Assembly (NCBI RefSeq): GCF_028898945.1
Contig: NZ_CP118607.1
Span: 5,256,001 to 5,320,000, forward strand
Reading direction: 5' to 3'
Length of the DNA stretch: 64,000 nt
DNA from: Pseudomonas sp. PSKL.D1
GTDB taxonomy: Bacteria; Pseudomonadota; Gammaproteobacteria; Pseudomonadales; Pseudomonadaceae
The notes beneath the pieces were generated by a model. That model was not told the origin of the DNA. It searched no databases and saw only the letters and a list, made by a program, of their open reading frames with translations. The number at the start of each line of letters is the position of its first letter. The stretch's first letter is position 1. This document shows, in pieces, positions 15,703 through 19,785 of this stretch. Position numbers and translations under genes: made by a program.

Positions 15703-16167
15703 TTAGGCGCTGCCGTGCCCCCGCAGTCGCCTCGCCAAAGCCGCCAACGTCTGGTGCTCGGCCCTCGGACCATCATGTGAAGAGACAAAGCCAGAGTATT
15801 GATCGATGTAAGTCCCCACATCCGATGCGATTCGTTGGAAGTCGCTACGTTCACCCGTGCCATGCATCGGATACAACTTGGCATGAAGATGATCGACTCC
15901 ATACCCTTCAAACACCATGGCAGTTCGAGCGACGCCGGTCAGCACGTCATCCAAAAGCCGAGCGACCTTTTTGGTAGCAATCAGCAATGCTGTAATCACT
16001 GCATCATCCTGATCAAACACATAACTCGAGTAGTGTTCTTTCGGGACAACCACCGTCACACCATAGGTATTTGGGTAAATTGAAAGAAAGGCCAAGTGAT
16101 CCGGATCTTCCCACACGATATGGCTTTCAGCATGGCCGCTTACAATGTCGCAGAACACACACACCAT
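15703..16167 (-). CDS. HIT-domain nucleotide hydrolase
   Basis: A 154-residue histidine-triad protein. It begins with a Hint-like zinc pair (Cys3, Cys6 in CVFCDIV), has the usual strand LAFLSIYPNTYGVTVVVPKEHY, and a triad region VDHLHAKLYPMHG. The expected triad HxHxH reads H93-x-H95-x-Lys97: the nucleophile (middle His) is kept but the third His is Lys. HIT proteins cleave nucleoside phosphoramidates or dinucleotides, and a HIT hydrolase is known to give immunity to microcin C-type peptidyl nucleotides. The start lies one base after the adenylyltransferase stop, behind AGGAG, so the two are tightly coupled. The immunity role here is inferred from context. Confidence 0.85.
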   Translation of the reverse strand: MVCVFCDIVSGHAESHIVWEDPDHLAFLSIYPNTYGVTVVVPKEHYSSYVFDQDDAVITALLIATKKVARLLDDVLTGVARTAMVFEGYGVDHLHAKLYPMHGTGERSDFQRIASDVGTYIDQYSGFVSSHDGPRAEHQTLAALARRLRGHGSA

Positions 16168-16168
16168 T

Positions 16169-17119
16169 TCATCTCCTGTCCATCAGATGCGTCACACCCG
16201 TAGAGTCCCAGCGTAGGACGGTGGTTTTCTGTACACCTAATGAGTGTTTGGCCAGAGACGAGATCAGATTTCCACTCAGCACGGAAGCTAATGAAAAGTT
16301 CATGGGGCCGTAACTTGGCATGATCGCACTTGGAAGCGGAAACCAACGCTCATCTTCAAGCAAACTTGATGCATTTTCGATATCTTGCCAGTCGCCAGGC
16401 ACTACATGGATTGAACAGCACAAATGATGCAAGTACCCACCTGACACCACAGGGATATTGTGTGCTTTCGCCAATCGCCAGCACTCGCGAGCCAGGGTGG
16501 GCGGATTGTCAGCTGTTATCGCAGCAGCGTCCACGCCACTGGCCGCAACCTTACAAAGTTCGTCAATACTGACGCTGGACGCCAGACAGTCCACGGAAAC
16601 ATCCTTGAACCTCGATTCAAGTTCTCGTTTGAGCACGTCGACTTTCTTATCACCAATATCGCCAAGCGTCCAGAAAAGCTGACGATTTAAATTACTCTCC
16701 TCAACGACATCCGCGTCAACCAGCAGGAAATTTTGCACCCCTGCTCCAGCCAATAGCATACATAGAGCACTTCCAATGCCTCCGCACCCAACGACCATGA
16801 CCGTGGCACGTCGGAGAGTTTCCATATCCTCGATAACTTCCGTGCATTGTTGCGCACTGCACAGCAGATAACTGACTGTCCGACTACTGCGAGGATCACT
16901 CAGAAGATCAATGATCGCGGCGGCCTCCTCAGTTTGGCCATGAACCAACGACCCCGCATCAATCAACGCCTGACGAAAACTGGCGTCATCATTTAGCGTT
17001 GCGTCAAAAACACCCGATGGCCCATTCACAAAAACGCGATTATCAAGATAGGAAAATACAGTCGATGGGACAACCACACCCGCCACTTCGCCTTCGACAT
17101 AATATACCAGGTCTTCCAT
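16169..17119 (-). CDS. ThiF/E1-family adenylyltransferase, MccB-like
   Basis: A 316-residue E1-like enzyme. Residues 1 to about 100 form an N-terminal domain in the place of the peptide-binding domain of MccB. The adenylation domain follows: GCGGIG at 111-116, Asp135/Asp137, and ESNLNRQ at 141-147, then GDIGDKKVDVLKRELESR. These, together with TADNPPTL, VSGGYLHH and the C-terminal MPSYGPMNFSLAS, align by eye with E. coli MccB, which adenylates the C-terminal Asn of microcin C precursor. Unlike MccB and MoeB it lacks the zinc CxxC pairs (VPGDWQD where MccB has VPGKTGCYEC). A strong TAAGGAGGG precedes the ATG. It lies 56 bases after a peptide gene ending in Asn-Asn. Confidence 0.85.
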   Translation of the reverse strand: MEDLVYYVEGEVAGVVVPSTVFSYLDNRVFVNGPSGVFDATLNDDASFRQALIDAGSLVHGQTEEAAAIIDLLSDPRSSRTVSYLLCSAQQCTEVIEDMETLRRATVMVVGCGGIGSALCMLLAGAGVQNFLLVDADVVEESNLNRQLFWTLGDIGDKKVDVLKRELESRFKDVSVDCLASSVSIDELCKVAASGVDAAAITADNPPTLARECWRLAKAHNIPVVSGGYLHHLCCSIHVVPGDWQDIENASSLLEDERWFPLPSAIMPSYGPMNFSLASVLSGNLISSLAKHSLGVQKTTVLRWDSTGVTHLMDRR

Positions 17120-17175
17120 TTACCCTCCTTATCATAGCCTCTTGAGCCAGGAAGTTCCCTTCCCGGCCTCGCCAC

Positions 17176-17376
17176 TTAGTTATTGCACTGCGGCAGCATT
17201 CGTGCGTGCATACCACCGCATTTCGACCTATCAAAGCTTGCAAGAGTTAACACATGCTGACCAACTCGGCTTTCCCTGGTGGTCATCTCCTTAGGCTCGG
17301 CTTCCTTCAGCGCCGAGGCATTAACTACTGGTGCACTCAAAAGCACAACAGCTGCTACTCCAAGTACTTTCTTCAT
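17176..17376 (-). CDS. Small signal-peptide protein ending in Asn-Asn (candidate precursor peptide)
   Basis: A 66-residue protein first in the operon with the MccB-like and HIT genes. Residues 1 to about 21 look like a Sec signal peptide ([20 protein letters not shown], then SA). A charged middle (KEAEPKEMTTRESRVG) leads to the C-terminal SKCGGMHARMLPQCNN, which has two Cys, a Gly-Gly and a terminal Asn. In microcin C systems the modified residue is a C-terminal Asn, so the last residues fit a substrate of the next gene. The signal peptide is unusual for such precursors, whose modification is cytoplasmic. A weak AGGG lies before the ATG. The alternative is a small secreted protein unrelated to the enzyme. 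Confidence 0.7.
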   Translation of the reverse strand: MKKVLGVAAVVLLSAPVVNASALKEAEPKEMTTRESRVGQHVLTLASFDRSKCGGMHARMLPQCNN

Positions 17377-17687
17377 AAAACCCTCACGTTATTGAGAACG
17401 AAAATCGTTCGAGCACATTATTCGCTAGCAAATTTCCGATAGTCAATGTGAATTTATATAGGAAATTCCCTGCATTCTTGTAGGAAAAATCACCAACAAC
17501 GCGACCAATATAACGACCCACACAAACGCAATAGCCCAACCCTCACATAAAAAACCAACACCAGCTTAACAAAACCTAAGAACAAGAAATTTCCTACATA
17601 AATAGAAGAATTGCCTGACTTTTACGCACAAGACAAACTCCATTGAATAGTTGACTTGCCCACTTGCGCCATCAAAAGGAGGCTGAA
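17377..17687. promoter_or_regulatory. AT-rich divergent intergenic region with repeated GGAAATTTC motif
   Basis: This 311-base gap separates the peptide operon (minus) from the oxygenase-like gene (plus) and is far more AT-rich than its surroundings. It contains related motifs: GCAAATTTCCGATAG (17428-17442, i.e. GGAAATTTGC on the minus strand), ATAGGAAATTCCC (17458-17470), TGTAGGAAAAATC (17479-17491) and GAAATTTCCTACA (17586-17598). The shared core is TGTAGGAAATTTC in both orientations. I see no coding sequence in it. Confidence 0.6.
17417..17446 (-). promoter_or_regulatory. Sigma-70-like promoter of the peptide/MccB-like/HIT operon
   Basis: On the minus strand TTGACT (17441-17446) and AATAAT (17417-17422) are separated by 18 bases, about 40 bases upstream of the start at 17376. 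One copy of the GGAAATTT motif lies within the spacer, so a protein bound there would directly affect this promoter. Confidence 0.55.
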
Positions 17688-18176
17688 ATGCCGAGTTCGG
17701 AAGTCATGTACCTGAGATTCAATTCACAACAGCGCCGTGCTATATCCCAAGCCAACCAAGCCCTCGCTAAAGCCGGCGGGCCAGAGATAAGGGGGGTGGC
17801 GATTCAAGCCAGCACGTTGGCTGAAAAAATCATTGGTATTCTGAGTGTCGATCAGCAATCAACACTGCAGCGATTTGGCAAAGGTCAGCATGGTGGCTTT
17901 TCACTGCGCTACAACAGCTACCGATTTTCGCTCAACCCCCAAGCCAGCAGTGCCGCTGTGCGAGCATTCAAAAACTTTGAGCACGCCTTGAACGATGCCC
18001 AGCCACTGGCATTCGTGCTGCAGCCTGACAGCGCAGTGCTTATCAACAACAGCCGAGCCTTGCATGGCCGGGATATCGTGCAGGACAACAGGCGCCTGTT
18101 GGTCCGCCAGTTCGGATATTCGCCCTTCGCGGTACCACTGGTACTTGCTGAAGACCCTTTACTGGTGCGCGGCTAA
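17688..18176 (+). CDS. Half-length Fe(II)/2-oxoglutarate oxygenase-like protein (TauD/clavaminate synthase C-terminal half)
   Basis: A 162-residue protein that matches only the C-terminal half of the TauD/clavaminate-synthase-like oxygenases. NSRALHGRDIVQDNRRLLVR (distal His126 and the following Arg cluster) aligns with KNQRVLHARD...RWLLRLF of the full-length gene at 33473-34498. The metal HxD motif of the N-terminal half is missing, so on its own it should not bind iron normally. The start at 17688 follows AAAAGGAGG at ideal spacing, arguing for real expression rather than a decayed fragment. It is followed 13 bases later by a TSUP transporter gene. Function unknown; it may be a truncated remnant or a repurposed fold. 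Confidence 0.7.
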   Translation: MPSSEVMYLRFNSQQRRAISQANQALAKAGGPEIRGVAIQASTLAEKIIGILSVDQQSTLQRFGKGQHGGFSLRYNSYRFSLNPQASSAAVRAFKNFEHALNDAQPLAFVLQPDSAVLINNSRALHGRDIVQDNRRLLVRQFGYSPFAVPLVLAEDPLLVRG

Positions 18177-18189
18177 CAGGACATCACCC

Positions 18190-18993
18190 ATGATCGAACT
18201 CGACTTGACGCTGATCCTCACGCTCGCGCTGGTTGCCTTGGCAGCGGGTTGTTTTGACGCAATTGCCGGTGGTGGAGGTTTGATTACATTGCCGGTGCTG
18301 TTTATTTCCGGCATCGAGCCATTGGCAGCCATTGCCACCAACAAGTTCCAGGCCGCCTCGGCCACCGTTTCCGCTACTGCTGCCTTTGCGCGCAAGGGGA
18401 TGATCAACTGGAAACAAGGCATGCCGATGGCTGTGCTGTCTTTCATGGGCGGGGCGGCGGGCGCGCTCTCTGTCAGTTTTGTGCCCAAAACCGTGCTTCA
18501 AGCCTGCATACCGGTCCTGCTGATACTGGTGGCGCTTTACTTTGCCTTTAGCCCCAAGCCGAACGAGAAAGTACGCAAAGCAAGAATATCGCTTAGCCTT
18601 TTTTGTGTAGCAGTGGCCCCGGTAATAGGCTTCTACGATGGTATTTTCGGCCCGGGTGTCGGCTCGTTCTTCCTGCTCGCGTGCATGCTGCTATTGGGCC
18701 AGCACCTGTTGCAGGCAGTGTGCACCAGCAAACTCTTGAATGCTGCATGTAATCTGGGTGCGCTGTCGGTGTTCGCACTGAGTGGGGCGATCATCTGGCC
18801 ATTGGCACTGGCGATGGCCTTGGCCGCCTTCACGGGTGCGCAACTGGGCGCGCGCTGTGCAGTACGGTTCGGCCCACGGCTGATCAAGCCATTGCTGGTT
18901 TGCGTCTGTTGCATCATGGCCATCAAATTGCTGGCAGACCCGGCCAACCCGCTGGGCCAATGGCTAGGCGACCAGTTATTCGATTTCGAATAA
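18190..18993 (+). CDS. TSUP (TauE/SafE/YfcA) family membrane transporter
   Basis: A 267-residue integral membrane protein with about eight hydrophobic helices in two homologous halves. The first repeat carries GCFDAIAGGGGLITLPVLF (about residues 19-37) and the second IGFYDGIFGPGVGSFFLL, the hallmark TSUP motifs. Family members export sulfite or sulfonates or organic acids; the substrate cannot be told here. The ATG at 18190 gives the normal family length, while the long upstream frame overlaps the preceding gene. It ends 18 bases inside the convergent regulator gene. Confidence 0.87.
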   Translation: MIELDLTLILTLALVALAAGCFDAIAGGGGLITLPVLFISGIEPLAAIATNKFQAASATVSATAAFARKGMINWKQGMPMAVLSFMGGAAGALSVSFVPKTVLQACIPVLLILVALYFAFSPKPNEKVRKARISLSLFCVAVAPVIGFYDGIFGPGVGSFFLLACMLLLGQHLLQAVCTSKLLNAACNLGALSVFALSGAIIWPLALAMALAAFTGAQLGARCAVRFGPRLIKPLLVCVCCIMAIKLLADPANPLGQWLGDQLFDFE

Positions 18994-19785
18994 CCCGTTA
19001 CTCAACGGCCCCACACTCAACCGCTCACGCACATCGTCATCGATACGCGGATCTTCCGGGCGATACAACTTCACCTGGCGGTAGGCGTTGATGCGGTTGA
19101 TCTCTTCGCCCAAGAATTCCCACACCACCCGGGTACATGCCGGGTTGCGTCGATCACCGCTGGAAACGCCAGTCTTCAGGCCGTTCAGGCGAGTGATGCG
19201 GCTTTTGAAGCTGGGGATAAGGATCGTCTGGCTCATTTCATTGAGGGTCAGCGATTCGTAGTCGATCAGGAACACGCGGTCCTGCAACTGGAATGCCGCG
19301 CCCAAGTAGCGGCAACGCACTTCGGCATGCTGGTCCGTAGCGCTGGAACGCTCTTGCCGCTCCTGGCGCTCGAACAAAAACCGCCCCTGCTCTTCCCACA
19401 GATGAATCAGCGACACCAGGATAGTGCCAGGCACCGACATGCAGTTGGAGTACTCGAAGTAGTACCCACAGTAGCGCGACAGGTTGCCCGCGTGCTCATG
19501 CAACGGGCGGAACAATTCGCTGATGGGGTCGCTGGGCTGGTCGGCCACGGCAGACACGCGCGCGCCAATCAAGCGGGCAAATTGCTCGGGCGGCATGTTC
19601 AGCTCGTAATCCTCCACGCCGAAGAAATCGCCGATGCGCTTGAGGTTGAAAGCCGTTGGGCGGCTCTGGCCGCTCAGGTACTTGTTGAATTGCGCGCGAT
19701 TGATGGAGAGCTGGCGGCAAACTTCGGAGATAGAGCGGTAGTGGCTGCAGGCCAGTTTCAGGTTGCTAGCGAAATGATCGCTCAT
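18976..19785 (-). CDS. XRE-family helix-turn-helix regulator
   Basis: A 269-residue DNA-binding protein. Residues about 7-62 form a Cro/C1-type HTH (SEVCRQLSINRAQFNKYLSG, the recognition segment, then RPTAFNLKRIGDFFGVEDYEL). The remaining 200 residues are an unassigned ligand or dimer domain with RVFLIDYESLTL and VVWEFLGEEINRI. It is convergent with the TSUP gene and overlaps its 3' end by 18 bases, and is divergent from the symporter gene at 19964. It could regulate the symporter or the accessory block to its left. Confidence 0.85.
   Translation of the reverse strand: MSDHFASNLKLACSHYRSISEVCRQLSINRAQFNKYLSGQSRPTAFNLKRIGDFFGVEDYELNMPPEQFARLIGARVSAVADQPSDPISELFRPLHEHAGNLSRYCGYYFEYSNCMSVPGTILVSLIHLWEEQGRFLFERQERQERSSATDQHAEVRCRYLGAAFQLQDRVFLIDYESLTLNEMSQTILIPSFKSRITRLNGLKTGVSSGDRRNPACTRVVWEFLGEEINRINAYRQVKLYRPEDPRIDDDVRERLSVGPLSNGLFEIE

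Follow-up and report, generated by a model that had tools for sequence, protein, structure and literature searches.

A candidate microcin C-like operon of Pseudomonas sp. PSKL.D1 whose precursor appears to carry a Sec-type signal peptide

Introduction

How would a microcin C-like peptidyl-nucleotide leave its producer when no exporter gene adjoins the operon that encodes it? This question is raised by three minus-strand genes in a 64,000-nucleotide stretch of Pseudomonas sp. PSKL.D1 (bases 5256001–5320000 of the 5.88-Mb single-contig genome, NZ_CP118607.1; hereafter the window), which code for a small peptide ending in Cys-Asn-Asn, an MccB-like enzyme and a HIT protein. An initial annotation regarded them as an undescribed operon that makes, and protects against, a peptidyl-nucleotide. 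The comparisons reported here suggest that the operon probably encodes a microcin C (McC)-like peptidyl-nucleotide whose precursor would also be a Sec substrate. A broader proposal is evenly balanced in our judgement, namely that such operons represent a class of peptidyl-nucleotide antibiotics relying on Sec and no dedicated pump, in which the leader is a signal peptide, the nucleotide is added before translocation, maturation takes place outside the cytoplasm and interchangeable immunity modules (HIT, S51 and GNAT) surround a constant A–B core.

Results

The precursor peptide and its predicted signal

The 66-residue peptide matched no Pfam or NCBIfam model. Among 17 distinct intact loci, the window included, a peptide of 61–78 residues (at the starts chosen) precedes the enzyme in every case and ends in C-N in 12 and C-x-N in five, whereas, of 2036 stretches of 340 bases drawn at random from these neighbourhoods as a control, 10 contain an open frame of at least 40 codons with either ending. 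The expectation in the initial annotation that relatives of the enzyme would have an Asn-ended peptide upstream is thus borne out. A ribosome-binding-like stretch lies before the mccA start in 17/17 loci, by a lax pattern and an uncontrolled count.

All 17 precursors appear to start with a Sec-like signal peptide, a feature absent from the initial annotation, as are the Cys pair and the stem-loop described below. A simple filter requiring a hydrophobic core and a cut site is passed by 17/17 precursors, compared with 15 of 511 other open reading frames (ORFs) of 60–90 residues, a background that excludes the precursors themselves, and with 675 of 8500 shuffled sequences. The cut sites are of the small-x-small kind (VNA, VQA, AHA, AQA, AEA, SFA and similar), and the net charge of the n-region is positive in 15 precursors and 0 in two. 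The part that would remain after cutting is 41–58 residues long (46 in the window). Cysteine is absent from the signal parts, and the mature part holds exactly two in 16 of the 17 precursors, the second of which lies by the C-terminal Asn; 8–16 residues separate the pair in 15/17. Mean pairwise identity is 28% for the signal parts and 14% for the mature parts, the last four residues excluded, and G-[VILF]-[ATVMSI] is found within the first 18 residues of 15 precursors (an uncontrolled count). This partly conserved h-region would fit a double role as export signal and element of enzyme recognition.

The modifying enzyme

The packed arrangement of the three genes given in the initial annotation agrees with the ORF coordinates and Pfam matches, the mccB-like stop and the HIT start being one base apart. 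The enzyme belongs to the ThiF family (PF00899, 4.6e-31), with no other domain family matched, and its architecture is that of MccB-type proteins, a ThiF domain combined with an N-terminal peptide-binding domain. Its likeness to MccB had been put at stake beforehand in a comparison with MoeB/ThiF, and it held: among solved structures in the PDB, E. coli MccB gives the best match (8e-20) and ThiF a poorer one (3e-11). The enzyme scores below the curated cut-offs of both the ThiF model (75.2 against 159) and the MoeB model (64.2 against 266), and in the tree the 17 enzymes form one clade (100/99) on a long stem.

Immunity-type genes around a constant core

The pattern of immunity-type genes is the strongest evidence for the predicted product class. 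A gene of a known McC-immunity family is found in 17/17 loci, being a HIT/MccH gene in 13, an S51 peptidase gene in one and an MccE2-type GNAT gene in three; the HIT gene lies directly downstream in 12 loci and divergently upstream in one (L043, L058 in its longer form). The window protein is a HIT protein (PF01230, 1e-6), and the motif ExxxxxHxHxK, in which Lys replaces the third His, is present in 13/13 HIT proteins of these loci (11 aligned, together with L042 and L043). The early His position, located by alignment to 1y23, is never His in the 11 aligned proteins: it is Phe in six, Val in three (the window included) and Ala in two. In passages of PMC7157772 the MccH clade is marked by the same ExxxxxHxHxK motif and by replacement of the early conserved His with Phe (F44 in Hyalangium); the Hyalangium enzyme acts as a hydrolase of the aspartamide-adenylate derived from McC, and the MccH-type proteins tested there include a standalone homologue from P. 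fluorescens.

The other immunity types are associated with the same core. An S51 peptidase (PF03575, 3.2e-42) directly follows B in L055 (= L011), S51 being a family to which the immunity enzyme MccG belongs (PMC9239234). In the Variovorax locus (L021, 7983-9497) the MccB-like enzyme is fused to an MccE2/RimL-type GNAT with 37% identity to the MccE C-terminus, which is likely to unite a modifying and an immunity enzyme in one chain. L017 and L020 encode MccD (53% and 50% identity to E. coli) and full-length MccE including its GNAT part (40% and 42%). Outside its mcc operon, the L020 genome carries a HIT gene that stands alone (L098, 3850-4353, = L050) and encodes the MccH motif; by eye, its neighbours code for an SDR protein and a regulator of the HxlR type.

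Exporter and accessory genes

When the ORFs of 18 neighbourhoods are compared, only A, B and H recur across the family; for A, BLAST provides the link in just four loci, and position and pattern do so elsewhere. Like the initial annotation, which had seen neither an MccC exporter nor an MccF-type gene, we obtained no BLASTP match (E <= 0.01) to E. coli MccC or MccF among ORFs of at least 60 residues in these neighbourhoods, the window included. No exporter gene lies beside the operon or is common to the neighbourhoods, pumps elsewhere in the genome, and exporters of another type in single loci, being outside this search. This absence may be explained because the precursor would carry its own Sec signal. 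An ABC ATPase cluster occurs in four loci at unrelated places and was rejected as a family-wide exporter; in the window and in L013 the ABC ATPase gene lies on the strand opposite to mccB, ∼6 kb away from it.

Two loci have further genes between B and MccD. In L017 (9515-11266) these encode a cytochrome c (PF00034, 1.5e-4; PdsA-like, below the cut-off of that model) together with a flavoprotein of the flavocytochrome c type (PF21706, 2.9e-40; FCSD-type), and similar cytochrome c and flavoprotein genes are seen by eye between mccB and mccD of L020. Both flavoproteins have a twin-arginine stretch at the N-terminus, as read from the sequence. It is possible that these proteins, expected to be periplasmic, are tailoring enzymes, which would fit maturation after export. 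The small gene that precedes them looks intact in L020 and is frameshifted in L017.

Distribution of the enzyme

At E ≤ 1e-40 the enzyme was found in 10 of 398 genomes of the genus, its own included, and nine enzyme loci came from scanning the genomes of named species. The family survey, also of 398 genomes, yielded 12 that passed 1e-25; six were strong matches (E ≤ 1e-90, including the own genome and the broken locus L041) and six were weak. The class survey (369 genomes) gave 16 matches besides the own genome, which were partial and aligned only from profile position 96 onward; they were rejected as class-level relatives, the nine placed in the tree falling into one clade with L002 of the own genome, taken for MoeB. 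The genus, species, family and class sets overlap. Since only a few best candidates were scored per genome, these counts are lower bounds.

The 17 loci remained after removal of duplicates that are 100% identical over the locus (L004=L013, L006=L016, L007=L018, L010=L019, L039=L014, L040=L005 and L022=L001); other handles denote the same loci in a longer form (L055=L011, L056=L012, L057=L042, L058=L043, L059=L005, L060=L009, L061=L008 and L062=L041). L041 (= L062), with an in-frame stop in B, was left out as degenerate. The named operon relatives are mostly Pseudomonas, the Variovorax member being L021. L018, whose record bears the title Pantoea sp. Cy-639, shows no difference over 3.9 kb from L007, which comes from a genome (G346) listed under the window's genus; the title is perhaps a misnaming. 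In L062 (6040-10038) the broken mccB is accompanied by genes of the MccD, decarboxylase and GNAT types; a precursor peptide was not found at this locus, nor a HIT in that genome.

Features of the operon and its setting

The coordinates are collected in Table 1. The scan of the operon region for promoters and terminators gave results no better than shuffles. The repeat search returned zero inverted pairs, though folding reveals a stem-loop after mccA; fold z is below -1 in 17/17 corresponding stretches and below -2 in 14/17, where the stretches of L055–L058 take in some mccB coding sequence, a later mccB start having been used there. The mccA–mccB stem-loop is possibly a partial terminator or attenuator, and some of the stem-loops after mccA resemble terminators, which would favour precursor over enzyme. 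Folding of the E. coli mccA–mccB gap gave no strong hairpin, and the stem-loop is not claimed to be common with E. coli. In L013 (7766-8000) the mccA–mccB gap is 235 nt long and contains a long near-palindrome (fold z -8.0), perhaps a small inserted mobile element.

Table 1. Features of the operon within the window
Feature	Position	Strand	Basis or remark
mccA-like precursor gene, 66 aa, ends Cys-Asn-Asn	17176..17376	-	counterpart in 17/17 distinct intact loci
mccB-like ThiF adenylyltransferase gene, with N-terminal domain, 316 aa	16169..17119	-	Pfam, PDB, tree, predicted structure
mccH-like HIT protein gene, 154 aa	15703..16167	-	Pfam, alignment, motif
Predicted Sec signal peptide, residues 1-20, cut after Ala20	17317..17376	-	simple filter
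Predicted mature peptide, 46 aa; Asn66 the expected modification site	17179..17316	-	Asn inferred from MccA
Cys53 codon, first Cys of proposed disulfide	17218..17220	-	two Cys in 16/17 mature parts
Cys64 codon, second Cys, two residues before C-terminal Asn	17185..17187	-	C-N in 12, C-x-N in 5 of 17
MccH-clade active-site motif EGYGVDHLHAK (ExxxxxHxHxK)	15877..15909	-	motif defined in PMC7157772
Ribosome-binding-like sequence GAGGG before mccA	17381..17385	-	read from sequence
Ribosome-binding-like sequence AAGGAGGG before mccB	17123..17130	-	read from sequence
Promoter-like TTGACT-18-AATAAT upstream of mccA	17417..17446	-	weak: 2 sites in region against 2.1 expected
Stem-loop between mccA and mccB	17145..17168	-	folding z -3.4

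The operon is an accessory cassette. The G+C content is 50–52% in its three genes, 59.7% over the window as a whole and 64.5% in the adjoining rmlD-like gene. Among 25 rmlD-bearing genomes of 38 relatives, only the window's own has a HIT gene within 1.5 kb of the rmlD-like gene; in L076 the regulator gene (18976–19785 in the window) directly adjoins rmlD, representing an empty site, and in L013 and L059 the cassette occupies the same place as in the window. Adjoining the cassette, an ORF at 17664-18176 (+) matches only the C-terminal part of a TauD-type dioxygenase (profile positions 191-265 of 267, below the cut-off) and is probably a gene remnant.

Discussion

Our results suggest a route by which the operon may act. 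MccA would be made with its signal peptide, and MccB, which needs ATP and has no visible signal, would by homology attach a nucleotide to the C-terminal Asn via a phosphoramidate bond in the cytoplasm. The modified precursor would then exit by the general Sec route, signal peptidase would remove residues 1-20, cutting after Ala20, and in most members the two cysteines would form a disulfide in the periplasm, to give a looped peptide of ∼46 residues ending in an isoAsn-nucleotide. Proteolysis in a susceptible neighbour would set free a toxic aspartyl-adenylate mimic, and in the producer any such product would be cleaved by the HIT protein (MccH), which has no visible signal and is predicted to be cytosolic. 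In relatives the immunity role may be taken by the S51 peptidase or GNAT acetyltransferase, MccD/MccE may decorate the phosphate, and in two of them a periplasmic flavocytochrome c from the same operon may participate in maturation or disulfide closure.

According to PMC12452194, Sec signal peptides are rare among bacterial ribosomally synthesized and post-translationally modified peptides (RiPPs), bufferins are the only ones shown to use Sec in their natural host, and premature export has to be prevented; preliminary results given there support the signal peptide as part of the sequence that the bufferin enzyme complex recognizes.

Several observations weigh against a Sec-exported peptidyl-nucleotide. 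The limits of the signal filter, a simple filter and not a trained predictor, were chosen after the peptides had been viewed, and its cut site differs from the cut set by hand in 6/17 precursors. L020 has a single Cys and the Cys pair of L017 is 40 residues apart, so the disulfide is not universal. The window enzyme is 27.5% identical to E. coli MccB over 62% of its length (29-30% for two relatives), comparison with the structural model gives MoeB and ThiF the same Z as MccB (25.2, over ∼230 residues), and the tree leaves the enzyme clade unjoined to MccB, with long branches that make the placement unsure. According to PMC9239234 an exporter is one of the three minimal mcc genes, and none adjoins the window operon; in L015 and L016 an ABC-transporter ATPase gene does lie upstream of mccA. 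Finally, Sec export could outrun modification by the nucleotide, and a ∼46-residue product would have to cross the outer membrane and enter its targets.

One alternative is a microcin C-like operon that does not depend on Sec, in which the hydrophobic N-terminus is only a leader for the recognition domain of the enzyme and is cut off in the cytoplasm, for example by TldD/E, the product leaving through a housekeeping pump encoded elsewhere. The partly kept h-region (the motif in 15/17 precursors and the higher identity of the signal parts) is what a recognition element might show, and removal of a Yersinia McC leader by TldD/E is described in passages of PMC10885120. We consider this arrangement unlikely, since signal-peptidase-type cut sites follow the hydrophobic stretch in all 17 precursors and would be unneeded for enzyme binding; no pump recurs beside the operon, though none is needed there. 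Closure of a macrocycle by the ThiF-like enzyme (for example a thiolactone from the activated C-terminal Asn carboxylate to the internal Cys) in place of a nucleotide adduct is improbable. The ThiF-like RiPP enzymes GrcB and IndF do perform such cyclisations, and an internal Cys stands 8-16 residues ahead of the terminal one in 15/17, but it would be difficult to account for the neighbouring phosphoramidase-type HIT, S51, MccE2-type GNAT and MccD/MccE genes if no peptidyl-nucleotide were made, the C-terminal Asn found in 17/17 precursors is needed by MccB chemistry, and L020 has no internal Cys.

There is only a slight chance that the peptidyl-nucleotide acts on the producer itself, in the style of abortive infection or a toxin-antitoxin pair, with HIT as the antidote. 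No exporter adjoins the operon, its occurrence is accessory and patchy (10/398 genus genomes) and the immunity-type gene is tightly coupled to B, all of which fits such a role; the precursor, however, bears a predicted secretion signal, and the viral scan returned distant ThiF matches only. An ordinary MoeB/ThiF sulfur-carrier enzyme next to a generic HinT and an unrelated small secreted peptide is scarcely credible and was rejected on cut-offs missed, motifs and gene context. The folds are of the same superfamily and the structural Z values are tied, but the ThiF and MoeB model scores are far under their cut-offs, MccB is the best PDB match, the HIT protein has the MccH triad change, and the peptide accompanies the enzyme in all 17 loci. 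The reading that we prefer is a microcin C-like peptidyl-nucleotide with a Sec-type precursor. Gene context, with HIT, S51, GNAT or MccD/MccE genes beside A–B, lends strong support to the prediction in the initial annotation that the operon makes such a compound and protects against it, and the view given there that export differs becomes specific with the predicted signal peptide.

A close parallel is the Hyalangium minutum mcc cluster (mccA1, mccB1 and mccH; PMC7157772), with an MccA-type precursor, MccB and a downstream MccH-clade HIT carrying the same motif. In passages of that paper the cluster has precursors of 36 and 46 residues and three genes for an ABC/HlyD/C39-peptidase transporter, whereas the window precursor has a Sec-like signal and its operon no adjoining exporter gene. 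The E. coli microcin C7 operon mccABCDEF (NC_010257) shares the order mccA–mccB, and two relatives of the window operon carry homologues of its MccD (50-53%) and MccE (40-42%); it differs in its leaderless heptapeptide precursor, the major facilitator superfamily exporter MccC and MccF, and the window operon is without MccC, MccD, MccE and MccF. Longer MccA precursors are known from the long-precursor MccB clade (PMC6495379) and from Yersinia and Nocardia clusters (PMC9239234), some with MccD/MccE or MccG-type immunity. As passages of these papers describe them, the long-precursor group has 17–56 residues, against 61–78 in our 17 loci, and the Yersinia and Nocardia MccB proteins have a carboxymethyltransferase domain, against a match to ThiF only in the window enzyme. 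Bufferins (MNIO-modified RiPPs, PMC12452194) likewise combine a Cys-bearing modified precursor with a Sec signal peptide, but with a different enzyme, Cys modification chemistry and a copper-binding role.

The description of the operon as undescribed has to be narrowed. HIT-linked mcc-like clusters of Pseudomonas were already mentioned in PMC7157772 (2020), and the mcc kind is known; the precursor type and the export route can count as new. No report of McC precursors with a Sec signal was found in the open-access literature, subscription papers and supplementary tables lying outside this scope; look-ups of ‘signal’ or ‘signal peptide’ gave zero occurrences in PMC7157772, PMC9239234, PMC12250964 and the main text of PMC6495379, and ‘Pseudomonas’ is likewise absent from the latter. 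If the preferred reading is true, the pathway is cut down to a precursor, a modifying enzyme and an immunity gene, a peptide with a C-terminal nucleotide can pass SecYEG, and pseudomonads make a disulfide-looped peptidyl-nucleotide. The three known types of immunity enzyme, swapped round one A–B core, would then represent a natural experiment on self-protection.

Viral and plasmid origins were considered and rejected. The viral scan gave seven loci, all distant (the widest match has 31% identity over residues 77–294, and short segments reach at most 52%), and all 30 plasmid records found are below 60% identity, 28 of them being Escherichia/Salmonella at ∼28%. Genes were inspected in three plasmid records (H6, the microcin C7 plasmid, H1 and H30). 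In the Acinetobacter plasmid pXBB1-8 (L065, 2271-6866), BREX brxL has two genes of the ThiF family and one for an ABC transporter nearby, perhaps another ThiF-type peptide cluster.
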